From: a virus
IMG/VR virus record: IMGVR_UViG_3300042314_000343
Coordinates: 1 to 64,000 of that record
Reading direction: 5' to 3' (one strand)
DNA length: 64,000 nucleotides
The notes under the pieces were generated by a model. It was not told where the DNA came from and did no database searches. It saw only the letters and a program-made list of their open reading frames with translations. Shown piece by piece: positions 2,606 to 50,963 of this stretch; positions within the stretch are counted from its first letter, which is position 1; every line of letters starts with the position of its first letter. The translations under genes and the position numbers were made by a program.

Positions 2606-2682
2606 CCCATGGCTGCTGGGACAGAGACGGGACTGTAAATCCTGTGCCGTTGGCTAGCGAAGTTCGATTCTTCGACATGGGA
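2606..2682 (+). tRNA. tRNA-Tyr (GTA)
   Basis: Anticodon stem CGGGA/TCCTG with loop CTGTAAA, a medium variable arm, and T arm CGAAG/CTTCG with loop TTCGATT. The acceptor CCCATG/CATGGG has a mismatch at 7:66 and starts with C, which is unusual, so the exact 5' end is less certain than the anticodon. Confidence 0.85.
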
Positions 2683-2700
2683 CAAAACATAAGGAGTGTT

Positions 2701-3282
2701 ATGACTAACAAGATAAAGGTAGTAGAAAATCTCATCAGCGATGAGGATAGAAAATTAGCAATTGATTTGATTGACATGCTTGTTGACAACGGTGGGCAGA
2801 ATTCTATCGTAGGCCAAAGCCAGGATCCAGCTGCTCAGATACAGCATGCCAGGCACGTCTTTACTGACCCAGAATATCCAGAGGTGCCATACCTTGTAAA
2901 AAAGTATCACGCCAAGATCCAGGAAGCCGATGAGGCATACAAAGATACATTTCCTCACAGCGTCATTCTAGTCAGGTATGACATTGGTGGAGAGCTAGAG
3001 CTTCACAACGATTTTGAGAACTATGATCCATGCAGAGAATGCACCCACGCAAATGCAATGTATTTGAATGATGGCTACGAGGGTGGAGACATTTATTTCC
3101 CAGAAGTTGATGTGCAGATTCACCCATCTGCTGGCACACTAGTATACTTTCCTCAGACCAGCGTAAAGGAGGACCACTCTGATATGACACATGGGGTTAC
3201 TCCAATTACTTCTGGTACAAAGTATCTAATTAACTTTTGCATCACTACCAATAAAGATCTTGTAGTCCCAGCACTACGATAG
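2701..3282 (+). CDS. Prolyl-4-hydroxylase-like Fe(II)/2-oxoglutarate oxygenase
   Basis: 193 residues, starting at the ATG that follows AAGGAG. The double-stranded beta-helix iron site is visible: H102-x-D104 in LHNDFE and distal H164 in DMTHGV, with K174 in GTKYLINF in place to bind 2-oxoglutarate as in prolyl 4-hydroxylases. GGDIYFPE is also typical of the P4H branch. The substrate is not given by sequence. Collagen-like phage fibres at 10415 and 44683 are plausible targets; nucleic acid or host protein targets cannot be excluded. Confidence 0.8.
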   Translation: MTNKIKVVENLISDEDRKLAIDLIDMLVDNGGQNSIVGQSQDPAAQIQHARHVFTDPEYPEVPYLVKKYHAKIQEADEAYKDTFPHSVILVRYDIGGELELHNDFENYDPCRECTHANAMYLNDGYEGGDIYFPEVDVQIHPSAGTLVYFPQTSVKEDHSDMTHGVTPITSGTKYLINFCITTNKDLVVPALR

Positions 3283-37884: not shown

Positions 37885-38499
37885 ATGCTAGGTTCAGCTG
37901 CGATATTTGGTTCAAAGGGTATGGTAAGAGTTCCTACCATTACTGGACTTAGCACATCTGCAGCAGCAACCACAGCACAAGCATCTGGTTTAACCGTTTC
38001 ATCAACTGGAACCGTTACCACATACGAAACTGGACTTAACGGTATAGTTGCTTCTCAGTCACCATCTGCAAACTCTTTGCTAGATTATGGATCTGCAATA
38101 TCTTACACCTATTATGTTTACGAAACGCCACCATGTACTGGAACCAGAACTATTTGGTGGGGTTATTGTGATGGATCAACCCCAATGACTGGAAGCTTTG
38201 AGTATGACCACTGTAATGTAAGTTTTGAGGCTGCTCTAGAGGCTGAGTGGCCTTCGGCATATCGCCCAGCTGGATTCCAGGCATCTAACGGCGGCCCAGT
38301 TTCTGTAAGCTGTGGCGGCGGCGGCGGCTCTGGCGGCGGCGGAGATAGCGGTGGTGGAGATAGCGGCGGTGGAGGACCATCTTGCACAGTAGGAGATATT
38401 TGTGATACCAATACAGACGACTTCGCCTGTACCACTGTATATTATGTATACGATTCTAGCTGCAACTGTGTATACAGCTATTCTTTGCCAATATGCTAA
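37885..38499 (+). CDS. PASTA-domain surface protein with Gly linker and Cys-rich end
   Basis: 204 residues. Residues about 13-77 match a PASTA domain (VPTITGLSTSAAATTAQASGL then VASQSPSANSLLDYGSAISY). A middle domain with WWGYCDGSTP follows, then a Gly/Ser/Asp linker (about 140-162) and a Cys-rich tail (6-7 Cys in the last 40 residues). PASTA domains bind peptidoglycan or beta-lactams; here it may help attach to the host wall. The linker is coded by CGGCGG repeats, unlike neighbouring codon use. Confidence 0.72.
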   Translation: MLGSAAIFGSKGMVRVPTITGLSTSAAATTAQASGLTVSSTGTVTTYETGLNGIVASQSPSANSLLDYGSAISYTYYVYETPPCTGTRTIWWGYCDGSTPMTGSFEYDHCNVSFEAALEAEWPSAYRPAGFQASNGGPVSVSCGGGGGSGGGGDSGGGDSGGGGPSCTVGDICDTNTDDFACTTVYYVYDSSCNCVYSYSLPIC

Positions 38500-44682: not shown

Positions 44683-46647
44683 ATGGCAACTAGAATGCAG
44701 CAACGCAGAGGAACTGCGTCACAGTGGACAACAGCTAACACAATTTTGGCAGCTGGAGAAATCGGTTTTGAGACCGACACCAACCAGTTTAAGATTGGTG
44801 ATGGAACCACTGCTTGGTCATCTTTGCCATACTTCAAGAACCTTGAAGACCTAGGTGCTAACCTAGATGACTACGTTCTAGTAGAGCTATTGGGAGAGCC
44901 AGAAGGTGTTGCTACTCTAGATGCAACAGGAAAGCTTACAGACTCTCAGATTCCAGATACAATTCATGGACCTACTGGCCCTACAGGTCCTACAGGACCA
45001 ATCGGACCTACTGGTGCAGATGGAGAAATGGGTCCAGAGGGACCACAGGGTGAGACTGGAGACGACGGTGCTGTCGGACCAACAGGCCCAACTGGACCGC
45101 AGGGTACAGATATTCACTTCGCAGGATCAGTTGCTGACGTAGCAAGCCTGCCATCAAGCGGTAACGAAGTAAACGATGCGTACATTGTTGACGCTGACGG
45201 AAACCTATACGTATGGAACGGAACTTCCTGGACTGACGCTGGTCAGATTGTTGGACCGCAGGGAGATACTGGTCCTACTGGACCAACGGGGCCAGAGGGT
45301 CCACTAGGTGGAGTATTTTATGTAAGTGCAACACAGCCTACAACTACGGTTGACGGTTCTGTTTGGTTCCAGGAAGGAACTGGACTATCTTATGTTTATG
45401 TTGCAGATGAAACTTCTTGGGAATTGCTAAACATGTTTGGACCTACTGGTCCACAGGGACAGGTTGGGCCAACTGGACCTCAAGGTGCTACTGGAGATAC
45501 TGGACCAACAGGGCCAGTCGGAAATGTGGGTCCTACAGGGCCAATCGGTGCTACAGGACCACAAGGTGACCAGGGACTTCAGGGTGCTCAGGGTGACCAG
45601 GGTGACCTAGGACCAACAGGTCCACAGGGAGAAATGGGGCCAACAGGACCTCAAGGATCTCTAGGACCAACAGGTCCACAGGGTCCTACAGGACCAATCG
45701 GACCAACTGGACCAACTGGTGCTGACTCTACCGTAGCAGGACCAACAGGTCCTACAGGTGCAACTGGTCCACAGGGTGTTGCTGGTGAAGACTCTACTGT
45801 TCCAGGTCCTACAGGACCAACTGGACCTACAGGACCACAGGGATCGTTCGGTGGTGCAACATTTGACTACACCTATGACTCTGAAACAAGCCACCCAGAA
45901 ACGCTGCCTGATGGAGTTCTAAGGCTGAACAACGCAGACTTGACACTTGCCACGGCACTCTACATTGACTTCCTAGATGATGCATCAGTAAACGTCTACA
46001 ACTTCTTGCAGACAATTGATGACTCAACATCTGCAGTTAAGGGGTCATTTAAGCTTTACAAGAAATCCGCCCCAGATGACTTTGTGTTCTTTAACATAGT
46101 CGGAGAGCACACTCATGTCACAGACCACTTTGACGTACCAGTTGCGTATGTTACTGGATCTGTTTCAAGCTTCTCAGACAACGAAGATGTGTTGATCACA
46201 TTTGCAAGAACTGGTGACATTGGTGACACTGGACCTACAGGTCCAACAGGACCAGCAGGAGCTACGGGACCAACAGGTCCACAGGGAAATGCAGGACCAA
46301 CAGGTCCAACTGGACCAGCAGGTGCTGACTCCCCAACAGTAGTCTCAATTGTTTCTGCAACTGACAACTATAGCGTAACAGCAGCAGACAAGAACAAGAT
46401 GGTTAAGATCACCTCTTCTTCTGCTAAGACAGTTACCTTCCCAACTATATCTACCGAACCAACTCTTGAGGTAGGCATGACCTTTACAATTGCTCAGATG
46501 GGAACTGGAAGACTAACAATGACTCCAGCATCATCAGCAGTTGTATACACCACACCAGGAAACAAGACTAGAGCTCAGTACTCAACTGTATCTGCACTCT
46601 ACCTTGGTTCTAACGAATGGCTAGTCTCAGGAGATTTGGCGGTATAA
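44683..46647 (+). CDS. Long collagen-like tail fibre (GPT repeats)
   Basis: 654 residues. A head domain ([19 protein letters not shown] then [19 protein letters not shown]) is followed by three collagen-like blocks, about 98-145, 192-205 and 254-386, plus 518-548, dominated by Gly-Pro-Thr and GPQG triplets. Globular inserts include [24 protein letters not shown]. The tip (about 550-654) matches the end of 37216. GPT triplets carry O-glycans in some bacterial collagens, relevant to the sugar transferases nearby. Confidence 0.88.
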
Positions 46648-46650
46648 CAT

Positions 46651-47730
46651 ATGTTTAGAGATATATTTAGAGGTTCACTATCATCAGCTTTCCGAAAGGT
46701 AATCGGAACAGCAGGATCTAACCCATTTAACGATGACTTTAATCGTACAGATGGTTCTATTAATCCAGCTGAAGACGGTGGAGTTTGGCAGGCTATAAGA
46801 GGAACCTTTCAGGTTTCTGGAAACAAGGCATCATCTCTAAATGACTCTAACTATCCAATCGCAGCTGTAGACTCGTTCACATCAAACGTTGACGTTGACA
46901 TCAAGGGAACCACTGGTGCAGGTGCTGCACTTTGGGTAACGGATTCTGGAAACTGGTGGTCAGTGGGAGCGGTACAGACATCTGAATCATGTAACTGTAC
47001 AGAATACTACAACAGCTATACATACACATATTACTACACTTACATCTCTGGATACAACCAGGGAAACTGTGTAAGAAATAATAATGACTGCTGTGCCTCA
47101 AACTACTGCCTATACTATAGCGGTGGAAACTGTGCAGCCTACGAATGTGTGGCATACAATACCTCAAACTGCTGTGGATTTAGCTGCTATGGCTACAATG
47201 CCTACAACTCTAGAAACAAGACTGGTGGAAACTGTATGGGTAACTTCTGCTCTTGCTATAATGGATCTAACTGTGCTGCAACTGGATGCTCGGCCTATAA
47301 CCCAATCGTATGTGGACAGTACGCCTGCTCTGACTACACGTCTTGCAACAACTGTGCAGAGTACAACGCTGGAAACCCTAACTATGCAGAGGCATCTGCA
47401 AATGCAACTGGATACAATGGACCATACTACAGCTGCCAGACATGCTACCCTAGCTACATCAGGGTATTCCAGTCCGCATCAAACGTGGTAACAACCATGC
47501 TAACTCAAGCAGTTAGTGCAGTGGTTCAGTCACTAAAGGTAAAGACCAACGGAAACCAGATAACTGTAAAGGCCTACTCTGATGCAAACCAGGTCACACA
47601 GATTGGTAGCGACATTGTGTACACTGCTACTGGTGCAGCGATTGCTCCTAGATTTGGAATCACAGTTGTGCCTAGCTCTTACGGACAAACCTACAACGTT
47701 GACGAAGTCACAATAACACCAAACTCGTAG
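46651..47730 (+). CDS. Tail protein with a Cys/Tyr/Asn-rich insertion
   Basis: 359 residues. The ends form one beta-sandwich-like domain: FNDDFNRTDGSINPAEDGGVW to GNWWSVGAVQ, then YIRVFQSASNVV to NVDEVTITPNS. Between them (about 112-265) is a ~150-residue insertion with 22 Cys, mostly in NC, CC and CxC spacings among Tyr, Asn, Ser and Gly (NNDCCASNYC, TSNCCGFSCYG). It has no hydrophobic core, so disulfides or metal must hold it. Likely a surface-exposed adhesin. Confidence 0.78.
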   Translation: MFRDIFRGSLSSAFRKVIGTAGSNPFNDDFNRTDGSINPAEDGGVWQAIRGTFQVSGNKASSLNDSNYPIAAVDSFTSNVDVDIKGTTGAGAALWVTDSGNWWSVGAVQTSESCNCTEYYNSYTYTYYYTYISGYNQGNCVRNNNDCCASNYCLYYSGGNCAAYECVAYNTSNCCGFSCYGYNAYNSRNKTGGNCMGNFCSCYNGSNCAATGCSAYNPIVCGQYACSDYTSCNNCAEYNAGNPNYAEASANATGYNGPYYSCQTCYPSYIRVFQSASNVVTTMLTQAVSAVVQSLKVKTNGNQITVKAYSDANQVTQIGSDIVYTATGAAIAPRFGITVVPSSYGQTYNVDEVTITPNS

Positions 47731-47768: not shown

Positions 47769-48467
47769 ATGAAAATTTTTAAGGTGTTTTCCAGGCCAGG
47801 CCTGAGAGATTGGGGCAAGCCTCAGCCAGCAAAAGGCTTTGTGCCAGAGTGGTATCGCCAAAGCGAAAACACTTATGTTAGCGATAAAGATCCAAGTAAG
47901 AAGGAAAATGCAGGATTAAAAAAGTGCGTACCGCTTCTGGATGCACTTGTTTCTGGATACATGCTGACCATCCCAGTAGACATCTATGTAACTAAAGACG
48001 AAGATGGAAATCCAAGATTTAGCTGGAATGGGCCACAACAACTTTCTGGGTTTGTAGATGAAAGATCTCCACAGCTAGGAAAGCTTATGCCAAGGCCAGC
48101 AGGCCATCACCCAAACCACCTAGTATTCAGTGGTTTTTGGGGGTACAAAACTCCAAGAGGTTGGTCATCACTTATTGTGCATCCACTAAACAGGTTTGAC
48201 CTACCATTCACTATCTCATCTGCAATAGTAGATAGTGACGACTTCAATTCACCAGGAAATATTCCATTCTTTATAAAAGAAGGTTTTGAGGGGGTTATCC
48301 CAGCAGGAACACCATTTGCACAAATCATACCAATAAAGAGATCGTCGTGGACCCTGGTAGATGACACAACTGGCATGTCAGATGTAGAGCCTGTTCAGGC
48401 AGTGTTGGTTAGGCAACCAGAGACACTTTATAAAAAGATATACTGGAGAAAGAAGGACTACCGCTGA
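47769..48467 (+). CDS. DUF6065-like protein A
   Basis: 232 residues. FVPEWYRQ, KKCVPLLDALVSGYMLTIPVD, TPRGWSSLIVHPLNR and GVIPAGTPFAQIIPIKRSSW are shared with 48877, so the two are paralogues. This is the pattern I associate with DUF6065, found beside glycosyltransferases in phages. Reaction unknown. Confidence 0.68.
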   Translation: MKIFKVFSRPGLRDWGKPQPAKGFVPEWYRQSENTYVSDKDPSKKENAGLKKCVPLLDALVSGYMLTIPVDIYVTKDEDGNPRFSWNGPQQLSGFVDERSPQLGKLMPRPAGHHPNHLVFSGFWGYKTPRGWSSLIVHPLNRFDLPFTISSAIVDSDDFNSPGNIPFFIKEGFEGVIPAGTPFAQIIPIKRSSWTLVDDTTGMSDVEPVQAVLVRQPETLYKKIYWRKKDYR

Positions 48468-48880
48468 TGGCAAATCCAAAAAGAAGAAAATCAGAGAGAA
48501 AGCTTGTAGTCAACGTACCAGGAGATGTCAAGAGAATAACCACTCTTGACCTTATAAAGATGGCAGTCCTTAAGTCACTTGATAGCAAAAAGGCCAAAAA
48601 GTCTGTAGTCTCTGAAAATGGAATTATGCCAGACATGAGCAGAATGAACGACATCTCTACGCTAGCAATAGTTGTAGATAATGAAGTCGTAGATGTAATG
48701 AGGGCACAGCCTAGATTATCATCAATACTTTTGGCAGAGCCAAAGTTTGTAAAGATTAACAAGGAAGATGGCGGAGTTAGAATTGGAGATAAGTATCTGG
48801 ATGGAAAGTTTGTCCCTCAAGATGACAAAGTTGACATTAACCTAAATCCACAAGAGTTTAAGCTAGGAGAGACGCAGTGA
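48467..48880 (+). CDS. Unknown protein between two DUF6065-like genes
   Basis: 137 residues, basic N-terminus (MANPKRRKSERKLVVNVPGD). VVDVMRAQPRLSSILLAEPKFVKI suggests an alpha/beta end. ATG and TGA overlaps on both sides tie it to the paralogue pair. Confidence 0.58.
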   Translation: MANPKRRKSERKLVVNVPGDVKRITTLDLIKMAVLKSLDSKKAKKSVVSENGIMPDMSRMNDISTLAIVVDNEVVDVMRAQPRLSSILLAEPKFVKINKEDGGVRIGDKYLDGKFVPQDDKVDINLNPQEFKLGETQ

Positions 48881-49545
48881 AAATAAGAGGAAAAAACATA
48901 ACCTTTCATTCAGATAAAACTGAGTTTGATTTGCCAAGACCTGCTGCAGCAAGTCGTTTTATTCCAGACTGGTTTAGAACCATGCCAGGCGTGATTGACA
49001 GAGTTGAAACAGTAAAGAAGTGCATTCCAGTTTTAGACTCGCTAACTTTGGGGTACATGATTCCTCTGCCAGCAGATGTTATGTATGAGCCAGAGTCAAA
49101 GCAGATAATCTCAAATGCGAAGTTTAAACTTAACAGCGATCACGTGCCAGTGCAAACACAAAATGTAGCTTTGCCAGACCACTTTGACCCACAGCCACAC
49201 AAGTGGGTTAACTCCTGGTATATCAAAACACCAAAGGGGTATAGCACTCTATTCGTTCACCCACTAAACAGGCTTGATCTGCCATTTCAGTCATTCAGTG
49301 GAGTGGTTGATACCGACAAGCACCCCATTGTTATTAACTTTCCGTTTGTAATTCGTAAAGACTTTTCTGGTATAATACCAGCAGGGACTCCAATGATTCA
49401 GGCAATTCCATTTAAAAGAGACACTTGGGATAGCAAGGTAATTGACGAGAACGAGTCGTATTCATACGAGTTTGCAAATGCAAATCAAGATGCACCACTA
49501 GCATGGTATAAGAGGAATATATGGAACAAGAAGACCTATCGTTAA
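48877..49545 (+). CDS. DUF6065-like protein B
   Basis: 222 residues, paralogue of 47769 (FIPDWFRTMPG, KKCIPVLDSLTLGYMIPLPAD, TPKGYSTLFVHPLNRLDLPF, GIIPAGTPMIQAIPFKRDTW). Both end in a basic KKxYR motif. Overlaps the next gene by 25 bases. Confidence 0.68.
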   Translation: MKIRGKNITFHSDKTEFDLPRPAAASRFIPDWFRTMPGVIDRVETVKKCIPVLDSLTLGYMIPLPADVMYEPESKQIISNAKFKLNSDHVPVQTQNVALPDHFDPQPHKWVNSWYIKTPKGYSTLFVHPLNRLDLPFQSFSGVVDTDKHPIVINFPFVIRKDFSGIIPAGTPMIQAIPFKRDTWDSKVIDENESYSYEFANANQDAPLAWYKRNIWNKKTYR

Positions 49546-50963
49546 AAACGATCTACGTAGCAATCCCGTCACTATATGACGCAGAGCTGGCAAGAACAAT
49601 TGCCGACGCATTTGCCAAAGCTGATCACCCAGAAAGGGTATTTGTTGGAGTAGCAATCCAGGACGACAATCAAAAGATTTTTAAGCAGCTAAAGAAGCTG
49701 TACAAGAACAACAAGAATGTAAAGCTGTCCTTTACAAAGCTAACATCAAAGAACGTACTTGACGAGCTTGGGGTTGGTACAGGAAGAGCAAAATCACATT
49801 CCATGTACAATGACGAAGACTATGTTCTTCAGATTGACTCACACACTATGTTTGAGCAAGGATGGGATGCCATACTTGTTGATCTTCACCTAGAGGCAGT
49901 AGGAGAGATACAGAACGATAAGATTGTTCTTACCGCATATGCTGGTCACTACTTTTTAGACAAAGACGGAGAGCGAACTGTAGAGCTTCCAGAAGGATTC
50001 TCGGCAACCCAAAAATTCTTTTATTCTCTTTACGCACAGTTTCAAAGACGGTACGGAGTAATTCCAGCAGCGTCTATGGTTGACTTCGCAACTATAACAG
50101 ACGCCGACAGAAGACTTTTCCCAGCATCAAAATTTAGTGCCAACTTCGCATTTGGCAATAAAGAGTTTGCAAAAAACTTAGGACTAGACCTAAAAGCGGT
50201 GTTTTTTGAAGAAGAGGTTATCCAGTCTGTCAATCTTTTGTCATCAGGATTTAGCCTAGTATTTCCAAACATTGAAAGTGCACTTGTTCGCCACCTATAC
50301 ACTAAGGCAGGGTCAAAGCCAGAGCTTAGAAAGTCGTCAGCTGATTATCTAACTCAAGAGCAAGAGCGTCAGCTAAATCTAAGACAGCAGGAGAACTATC
50401 TGTCATTTTTGGCAGACGAGTCTCTAAAGGAATACCGTGAGTCTTATGAGAGATACTCCAACATAAGCCTAGAGCTTGGAAGGCAGTCAGCATCTACTCT
50501 GCACCCATCAACCTGGACTATTGACGCAGTAAGATACGACTTAATAGTGCAGGAATATCAGGATAGACTAAGAAGTCGTAACGTTGATGCAGCAGCTACT
50601 GAAGCTTCGGCACCAACTTCTGGTAACGAAGATGGTTGTAACTGTAAGACTAAGCACAACGCTACTGAAAATCATGAGGGACACAGTCACGATGAGGTAG
50701 TTGTAGAAGAGCAGTCTGGTGAGCAAGGAGAGCAGGCAAAGCCTAAAGTTGCAAGGCCTTGGGACCTTCTAAATCCAAATATTGGTAGGGTAAGCGATGA
50801 AGTAAAGAAGCTTAGAATGGACTACTGCAACGGCTGTGAGTTTTTCATCTCCCTTACACAGCAATGCACAAAGTGTGGATGCCACATGCCTTGGAAGACA
50901 GGTTTGCCACACGCATCTTGCCCAGTTGGAAAGTGGGACGCAGTTCCAGATGAAGGTAACTAA
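49521..50963 (+). CDS. GlcNAc-transferase-like glycosyltransferase fused to a zinc module
   Basis: 480 residues. Residues about 8-270 fit the GT60-type GlcNAc transferase family: IYVAIPSLYDAELARTI, VFVGVAIQ, GVGTGRAKSHSMY and the DxH metal site D106/H108 in LQIDSHTMF. GT60 enzymes add GlcNAc to hydroxyproline or serine/threonine in eukaryotes. A linker with Glu and His leads to the DUF6171-like zinc module (about 415-475) also encoded alone at 34195 and 38901. Confidence 0.76.
   Translation: MEQEDLSLKTIYVAIPSLYDAELARTIADAFAKADHPERVFVGVAIQDDNQKIFKQLKKLYKNNKNVKLSFTKLTSKNVLDELGVGTGRAKSHSMYNDEDYVLQIDSHTMFEQGWDAILVDLHLEAVGEIQNDKIVLTAYAGHYFLDKDGERTVELPEGFSATQKFFYSLYAQFQRRYGVIPAASMVDFATITDADRRLFPASKFSANFAFGNKEFAKNLGLDLKAVFFEEEVIQSVNLLSSGFSLVFPNIESALVRHLYTKAGSKPELRKSSADYLTQEQERQLNLRQQENYLSFLADESLKEYRESYERYSNISLELGRQSASTLHPSTWTIDAVRYDLIVQEYQDRLRSRNVDAAATEASAPTSGNEDGCNCKTKHNATENHEGHSHDEVVVEEQSGEQGEQAKPKVARPWDLLNPNIGRVSDEVKKLRMDYCNGCEFFISLTQQCTKCGCHMPWKTGLPHASCPVGKWDAVPDEGN

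Follow-up and report, generated by a model that had tools for sequence, protein, structure and literature searches.

Uncultured tailed phages encode a family of proteins that we interpret as tail-fibre-associated adhesins, in which a lectin-like beta-sandwich would carry a giant antiparallel hairpin stapled by nested disulfides; we put the probability of this reading at about 0.7. The member analysed here is encoded in the window, a stretch of 64,000 nucleotides comprising positions 1 to 64,000 of IMG/VR virus record IMGVR_UViG_3300042314_000343, and its cysteine-rich insert most probably forms a single giant hairpin with a nested disulfide ladder and a variable tip. The parity of the cysteine counts, the mirror symmetry of their spacing, the pairing of indels across the two arms, the exchange of inserts and the gene neighbourhood are properties of the sequences themselves; the disulfides are predicted from the cysteine pattern.

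A cysteine-rich insert in a predicted beta-sandwich

The window gene (46651-47730, plus strand) encodes a predicted lectin-like beta-sandwich protein of 359 residues with a cysteine-rich hairpin insert. The N-terminal half of the sandwich (residues 1-113; 46651-46989, plus strand) is marked by conserved columns, among them those of the family motif WVTDSGNW at residues 95-102, and is modelled by AlphaFold at pLDDT 77-91 from residue 21 onwards; the C-terminal half (residues 266-359; 47446-47727, plus strand) is modelled at pLDDT 78-94. The initial annotation had described a 22-cysteine insertion splitting a beta-sandwich, and both elements of that description held: every one of the 22 cysteines lies within residues 114-265 (nucleotides 46990-47445), with none in the other 207 residues, and the flanks are predicted, mostly at pLDDT 77-94, to form a beta-sandwich. 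Cysteine makes up 0.58% of the other long open reading frames of the window, a frequency at which about 0.9 would be expected per 152 residues. Asn, Tyr, Ser, Gly, Ala and Thr are likewise abundant in the insert, and Leu, Ile, Val, Met and Phe together contribute 6%, in agreement with the annotated Cys/Tyr/Asn/Ser-rich composition without a Leu-rich core.

When the window protein was compared with its relative L003, the reading frame was conserved and pN was far below pS, both in the insert (0.118 and 0.632) and in the flank (0.06 and 0.57); 20% of aligned insert residues differ, and all 22 cysteines are kept (22/22). By this comparison the insert is translated and under selection, which answers the concern that the segment might not be translated.

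AlphaFold extended the sandwich by a hairpin of two strands (residues 112-131 and 246-265), whose base contains C114/C116 and C262/C265. Structure prediction, which had been suggested as a check, recovered the sandwich and this hairpin base and left the rest of the insert unpredicted: residues 131-250 have a pLDDT of about 25, and the ladder is absent from any model. A relative devoid of cysteines, L134, was modelled at a mean pLDDT of 31. If straight, the hairpin would measure ~23 nm in the window protein and ~77 nm in L293; the ribbon may instead coil or trimerise.

The predicted beta-sandwich of the flanks may be of the ConA-like lectin/glucanase type, a two-sheet jelly roll. In Foldseek comparisons, VIP36 and legume lectins of the ConA type reached probabilities of up to 0.95, but with E values of 0.075 or worse, and a 208-residue protein of the mycobacteriophage Refuge is an insert-less look-alike (probability 0.99, E 0.1); the window flanks alone comprise 207 residues. 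The best match over the whole model was the central fibre of mycobacteriophage Douge, gp20 (PDB 8ZDP), which is located at the tail tip and, as recombinant domains, bound glycans of mycobacteria (PMC13033339); its probability was 1.00, but with an E value of 0.016, a TM score of 0.36 and 9% identity, and disulfides go unmentioned in its paper. BFVD held six structural relatives, all uncharacterised proteins from uncultured Caudovirales phages.

Scans of IMG/VR yielded 111 distinct usable inserts, after omission of seven sequences that were partial or in which the motif was not recognisable. Throughout the family, two beta-sandwich halves surround the insert, and the N-terminal half ends in a WxTDxxNW-like motif. 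The insert carries 4 to 50 cysteines, or none in a single clade of five proteins (L105, L112, L124, L126 and L134), whose inserts contain Thr/Tyr/Ser repeats of the TYTSG/PYTSNV type. This clade apart, the relatives carry cysteine inserts, contrary to the concern that the pattern might be lacking in them. Many Phe/Tyr exchanges separate the Cys-free L105 and L112. One contig (IMGVR_UViG_3300046787_000129) carries two paralogous putative adhesin genes in one phage (L005 and L066), with 16 cysteines each at the same spacing. In L019 and L020 (also L106 and L107), an apparent frameshift within the cysteine insert splits the gene; it is common to two contigs, so that either the allele is broken or both assemblies contain the same error.

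The window protein had no match in Pfam or PHROGs, and a PDB sequence search returned bikunin as its sole match (E 0.32). Among isolate phages, no match was obtained when four members were compared by tblastn with 50,697 phage records, and a motif scan of one genome per species from 84,980 bacterial and archaeal species (GTDB) gave chance matches only. No account of such a protein family was found in the open-licence papers searched. The window's 103-kb IMG/VR record encodes a portal 47% identical to Streptomyces phage portals, as well as a Gp88 family gene, and an actinobacterial host is plausible for this phage.

Parity and mirror symmetry of the cysteines

Cysteine counts were even in all 52 proteins of the discovery set and, under a fixed rule for the insert boundaries, in 57 of the 59 inserts of the validation set. 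The odd pair, L182 and L190, each have one additional cysteine that belongs not to the insert but to the C-terminal flank (VLQC/ILQC), and once these are set aside all 111 distinct inserts are even (0 to 50 cysteines). On a tree of the flanks the count changed at least 49 times, with parity even throughout. A few further proteins have odd totals over the whole ORF: L204 and L209 have a cysteine in the C-terminal flank, L164 has one in an additional C-terminal domain, and in L273 and L294 one precedes the probable start. As a control, other ORFs with at least six cysteines in the loci retrieved first comprised 19 with even and 16 with odd counts. Single-cysteine repeat units (7-mers, 9-mers and 11-mers) are frequent in the inserts, and even counts are therefore not a mere consequence of two-cysteine units.

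The spacing of the cysteines is palindromic about a central gap. In the window protein, the left arm of the predicted hairpin (46990-47187, plus strand) contains 11 cysteines, at residues 114, 116, 140, 147, 148, 153, 161, 166, 174, 175 and 179, and the right arm (47233-47445, plus strand) another 11, at residues 195, 200, 202, 208, 213, 221, 226, 232, 235, 262 and 265; between them lies the predicted tip loop YGYNAYNSRNKTGGN (residues 180-194; 47188-47232, plus strand). The residues between successive cysteines number 1, 23, 6, 0, 4, 7, 4, 7, 0 and 3 in the left arm, 15 across the tip, and 4, 1, 5, 4, 7, 4, 5, 2, 26 and 2 in the right arm, so that the spacings of each arm mirror those of the other. 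The corresponding lists are 1, 5, 7, 9, 9, 9, 9, 9, 7, 7, 4 / 14 / 4, 7, 7, 9, 9, 9, 9, 11, 9, 9, 2 for L007, and 16, 16, 16, 13, 17, 17, 8, 11, 8, 11, 20, 12, 10, 9, 12, 12, 8 / 9 / 8, 12, 13, 8, 10, 12, 20, 10, 9, 10, 9, 18, 18, 13, 15, 15, 15 for L293. The bonds predicted for the window protein are C114-C265, C116-C262, C140-C235, C147-C232, C148-C226, C153-C221, C161-C213, C166-C208, C174-C202, C175-C200 and C179-C195. The earlier suggestion that an even number of cysteines would reflect 11 disulfides is strongly supported by the parity of the 111 inserts and by this mirror symmetry.

The mirror arrangement about the middle of the insert had a Fisher p of about 1e-26. Permutation tests on 24 discovery representatives gave a combined p of 2e-27, and 22 validation-only clusters, for which the mirror rule was fixed before the test, gave a combined p of 7e-11; these combined values are approximate, clusters (60% C-flank identity) being taken as independent. 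The best centre corresponded to exact nesting in 14 of the 22 validation clusters (chance, 11.5%), and exact centring was absent from the remaining eight. Mirror pairing was closer than translational pairing in 34 of 42 representatives. Mirroring appeared only as unit sums in the CC subclade (L035/L127/L137), and in L014-type proteins and L032 the mirror rule would require a local disulfide. The composition of mirror segments showed a weak aromatic anticorrelation (z -3.1; exploratory, nine groups tried). Duplication of DNA gives no reversed protein pattern whereas antiparallel pairing of two halves does, and the insert is therefore likely one hairpin; the nesting of Cys(i) with Cys(N+1-i) expected of a disulfide-ladder hairpin was found in the form of evolutionary symmetry.

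Variation of the insert and the proposed finger

The repeat turnover anticipated among relatives is real and symmetric, occurring at mirror positions of both arms. L034 and L131 differ by one unit per arm (left, a 9-mer; right, an 11-mer), L009 and L015 by one cysteine per arm, and L127 and L133 by five cysteines per arm. In the pair L021 and L026, two left-arm heptads are of the SPSYPC type in one protein and of the YYYAC type in the other, and the right arm differs oppositely; these blocks use different codons and thus are not simple copies of one another. The length difference between the window protein and L003 falls mainly in the predicted tip, the site of their main indel.

Both arms of L013 and L090 are strongly diverged and the tip less so (29-41 versus 13 differences per 150 nt), and their downstream flank is identical; L013 and L098 form the reverse mosaic, with a near-identical insert between diverged flanks. 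Thus, inserts move as modules. Among 25 pairs of Cys-bearing relatives, 23 keep all aligned cysteines; the other two, L032/L034 and L127/L133, have large indels. In most pairs the flanks, which are under purifying selection, are better conserved than the insert. Lys and Arg make up 6.2% of residues in tip loops versus 1.4% in the arms, and third codon positions are rich in C/T.

We propose that the lectin-like beta-sandwich presents one very long antiparallel hairpin, in which the first cysteine would bond with the last, the second with the second-last and so on, giving 11 bonds in the window protein and 2 to 25 in Cys-bearing relatives. Arms stapled in this way would form a finger that can dispense with a hydrophobic core. 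Contact with the host receptor would be made by the tip loop, which is variable and somewhat basic, and by the Tyr/Asn/Ser surface of the arms. The two arms gain or lose matching units together, and recombination swaps whole inserts between phages, which would shift host range. The disulfides would probably form after phage release, in oxygenated water, formation after lysis being the simplest guess. We lean slightly towards regarding these disulfide-zipper fingers as a new architecture, one that would give uncultured tailed phages a receptor probe able to evolve, its arms growing, shrinking and being exchanged in register by two-strand matching. If true, these would be self-standing fingers whose arms measure at most about 230 residues, or tens of nanometres when straight, and which 2-25 nested disulfides hold together in place of a hydrophobic core; no precedent was found at such a scale. 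With the pairing readable from the mirror rule, exact bonds could be predicted where AlphaFold gave no usable model, and such an adhesin could vary its length and surface while keeping its fold.

T-even gp38-type adhesins are encoded by a separate gene after the fibre gene and carry variable segments, swapped by recombination, on a conserved scaffold; they are Gly-rich, with polyglycine helices and no cysteine ladder. The window family is likened to them by organisation, in that a putative adhesin gene follows a fibre gene and segments are exchanged, not by homology, and it differs in having a predicted cysteine ladder in place of the polyglycine helices. Theta-defensins and similar beta-hairpin peptides are tiny and have few disulfides, their antiparallel strands being joined by nested cross-strand bonds. 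The disulfide ladder of theta-defensins (PMC13408038) resembles the predicted hairpin in its antiparallel strands and nested bonds, whereas the phage insert spans hundreds of residues and lies in a tail-fibre gene block. Bovine ultralong CDR-H3 antibodies also have a beta-sandwich that projects a long antiparallel beta-ribbon with a diversified, disulfide-rich binding element (PMC5994613, PMC8602281). They are not homologous to the phage family: the bovine element reaches up to about 70 residues, with its disulfides in a compact end knob (PMC5994613, PMC8602281), whereas the phage arms, of about 30-230 residues, would carry 2-25 predicted disulfides along the whole ribbon and are varied by phage evolution. 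The virion of Agrobacterium phage Milano is held by many disulfides, and excerpts of its description place the cysteines across sheath, baseplate and fibre contacts, mentioning no Cys-rich insert or hairpin ladder (PMC10811340). The Milano network, cow CDR-H3 and theta-defensin ladders are the nearest published ideas among open-licence papers.

Gene neighbourhood and alternative readings

Upstream of the window gene lies a collagen-like tail-fibre gene (44683-46647, plus strand) whose product has an Mtd_N domain, collagen repeats and a conserved C-terminal domain (Pfam/PHROG), and downstream lies a conserved phrog_7084 gene (47769-48467, plus strand). As expected of a phage tail adhesin encoded in a tail-fibre block, 28 of 32 loci have a fibre-type gene, usually with the same C-terminal domain, upstream of the family gene; phrog_7084 follows it in 30 of 32, and the loci without one or other neighbour include contig ends. 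This neighbourhood suggests that the window gene product is a tail protein, and we infer that the family proteins are receptor-binding tail adhesins, presumably present in the virion, with the upstream collagen-like fibre as their likely carrier. Host contact is plausible, given that the gene lies beside fibre genes, evolves fast and exchanges its insert between phages. Thioredoxin and glutaredoxin genes, found in 3 and 6 of 20 records, respectively, look like ordinary reductases, and no family-specific thiol-disulfide helper was found among them. In most loci, as in the window (47769-48467 and 48877-49545), paralogous phrog_7084 genes flank a small gene, and phrog_7084 homologs are present in HF2-like haloarchaeal viruses.

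The regular C-x6-C, C-x9-C and C-x10-C units, and a Thr/Ser/Asn/Tyr composition lacking a hydrophobic core, would also suit a disulfide-stabilised beta-solenoid resembling the Tenebrio antifreeze protein, in which each coil is closed by its own disulfide and repeats are stacked in direct order. Such coils predict translational symmetry, however, which was weak (Stouffer z -2.1 for direct repeats versus -14.6 for the mirror), unit lengths are unequal between the arms of one protein (9-mers versus 11-mers in L034), and indels are paired across arms. The tests did not bear out the direct-repeat pattern of a TmAFP-like solenoid, and the outcome of the mirror test led us to drop this reading, which we rate as quite improbable. 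A Zn or Cu thiolate mesh in place of disulfides, raised in the initial annotation, would draw on the numerous cysteines and on some CxxC and CC pairs, but 53 of the 106 Cys-bearing inserts have counts of 2 modulo 4, so that four-Cys metal sites cannot serve throughout. His accounts for 0.1% of insert residues across the family, the sets of four Cys (or Cys with His) typical of zinc or Fe-S cluster proteins were not found, and a profile search of the window protein gave no match to zinc-finger families. Sites of four cysteines are thus disfavoured, and even with two-Cys metal bridges placed within the same ladder, a metal reading overall has a very slight probability; given the mirror-symmetric spacing, the supposed mesh is better described as one antiparallel ladder.

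The hairpin ladder might be correct and the protein something other than a receptor binder: it could cap the fibre, act as a structural spacer or be released without entering the virion. That the flanks are under purifying selection agrees with this, and conserved synteny might likewise suit an assembly factor; yet in most pairs the insert has diverged more than the flanks, and it is swapped as a module, as expected for a specificity determinant. The tip loops also vary and are comparatively basic, and we regard a non-binding role as unlikely. The hypervariability of the insert, C/T-rich third codon positions and the adjoining Mtd_N-domain fibre recall the variable region of a diversity-generating retroelement, but the variation consists of paired indels and block exchange with the cysteines fixed. 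A search for reverse transcriptase (PF00078) was negative in 20 records, which may be fragments and include the window's 103-kb record, and positive in control genomes; with no reverse transcriptase nearby in those records, this candidate was rejected as having a probability close to nil. The adhesin reading with its nested ladder is the one we retain.

Several other genes of the window are of interest. A 2OG-Fe(II) oxygenase (2644-3282), the collagen-like fibre (44683-46647) and a PF11397 GlcNAc-transferase (49521-50963) occur together in one phage; PF11397 also includes the Skp1 hydroxyproline GlcNAc-transferase, and the collagen-like tail fibre is possibly hydroxylated and glycosylated. Fused to the GlcNAc-transferase is a Cys-rich C-terminal stretch (CNGC..CTKCGC; 50700-50960), which in most relatives seems to correspond to an independent small ORF close to the putative adhesin gene. 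A second Cys-rich protein encoded in the same gene block (37885-38499) has a PASTA-like domain, a Gly-rich linker and 10 cysteines.
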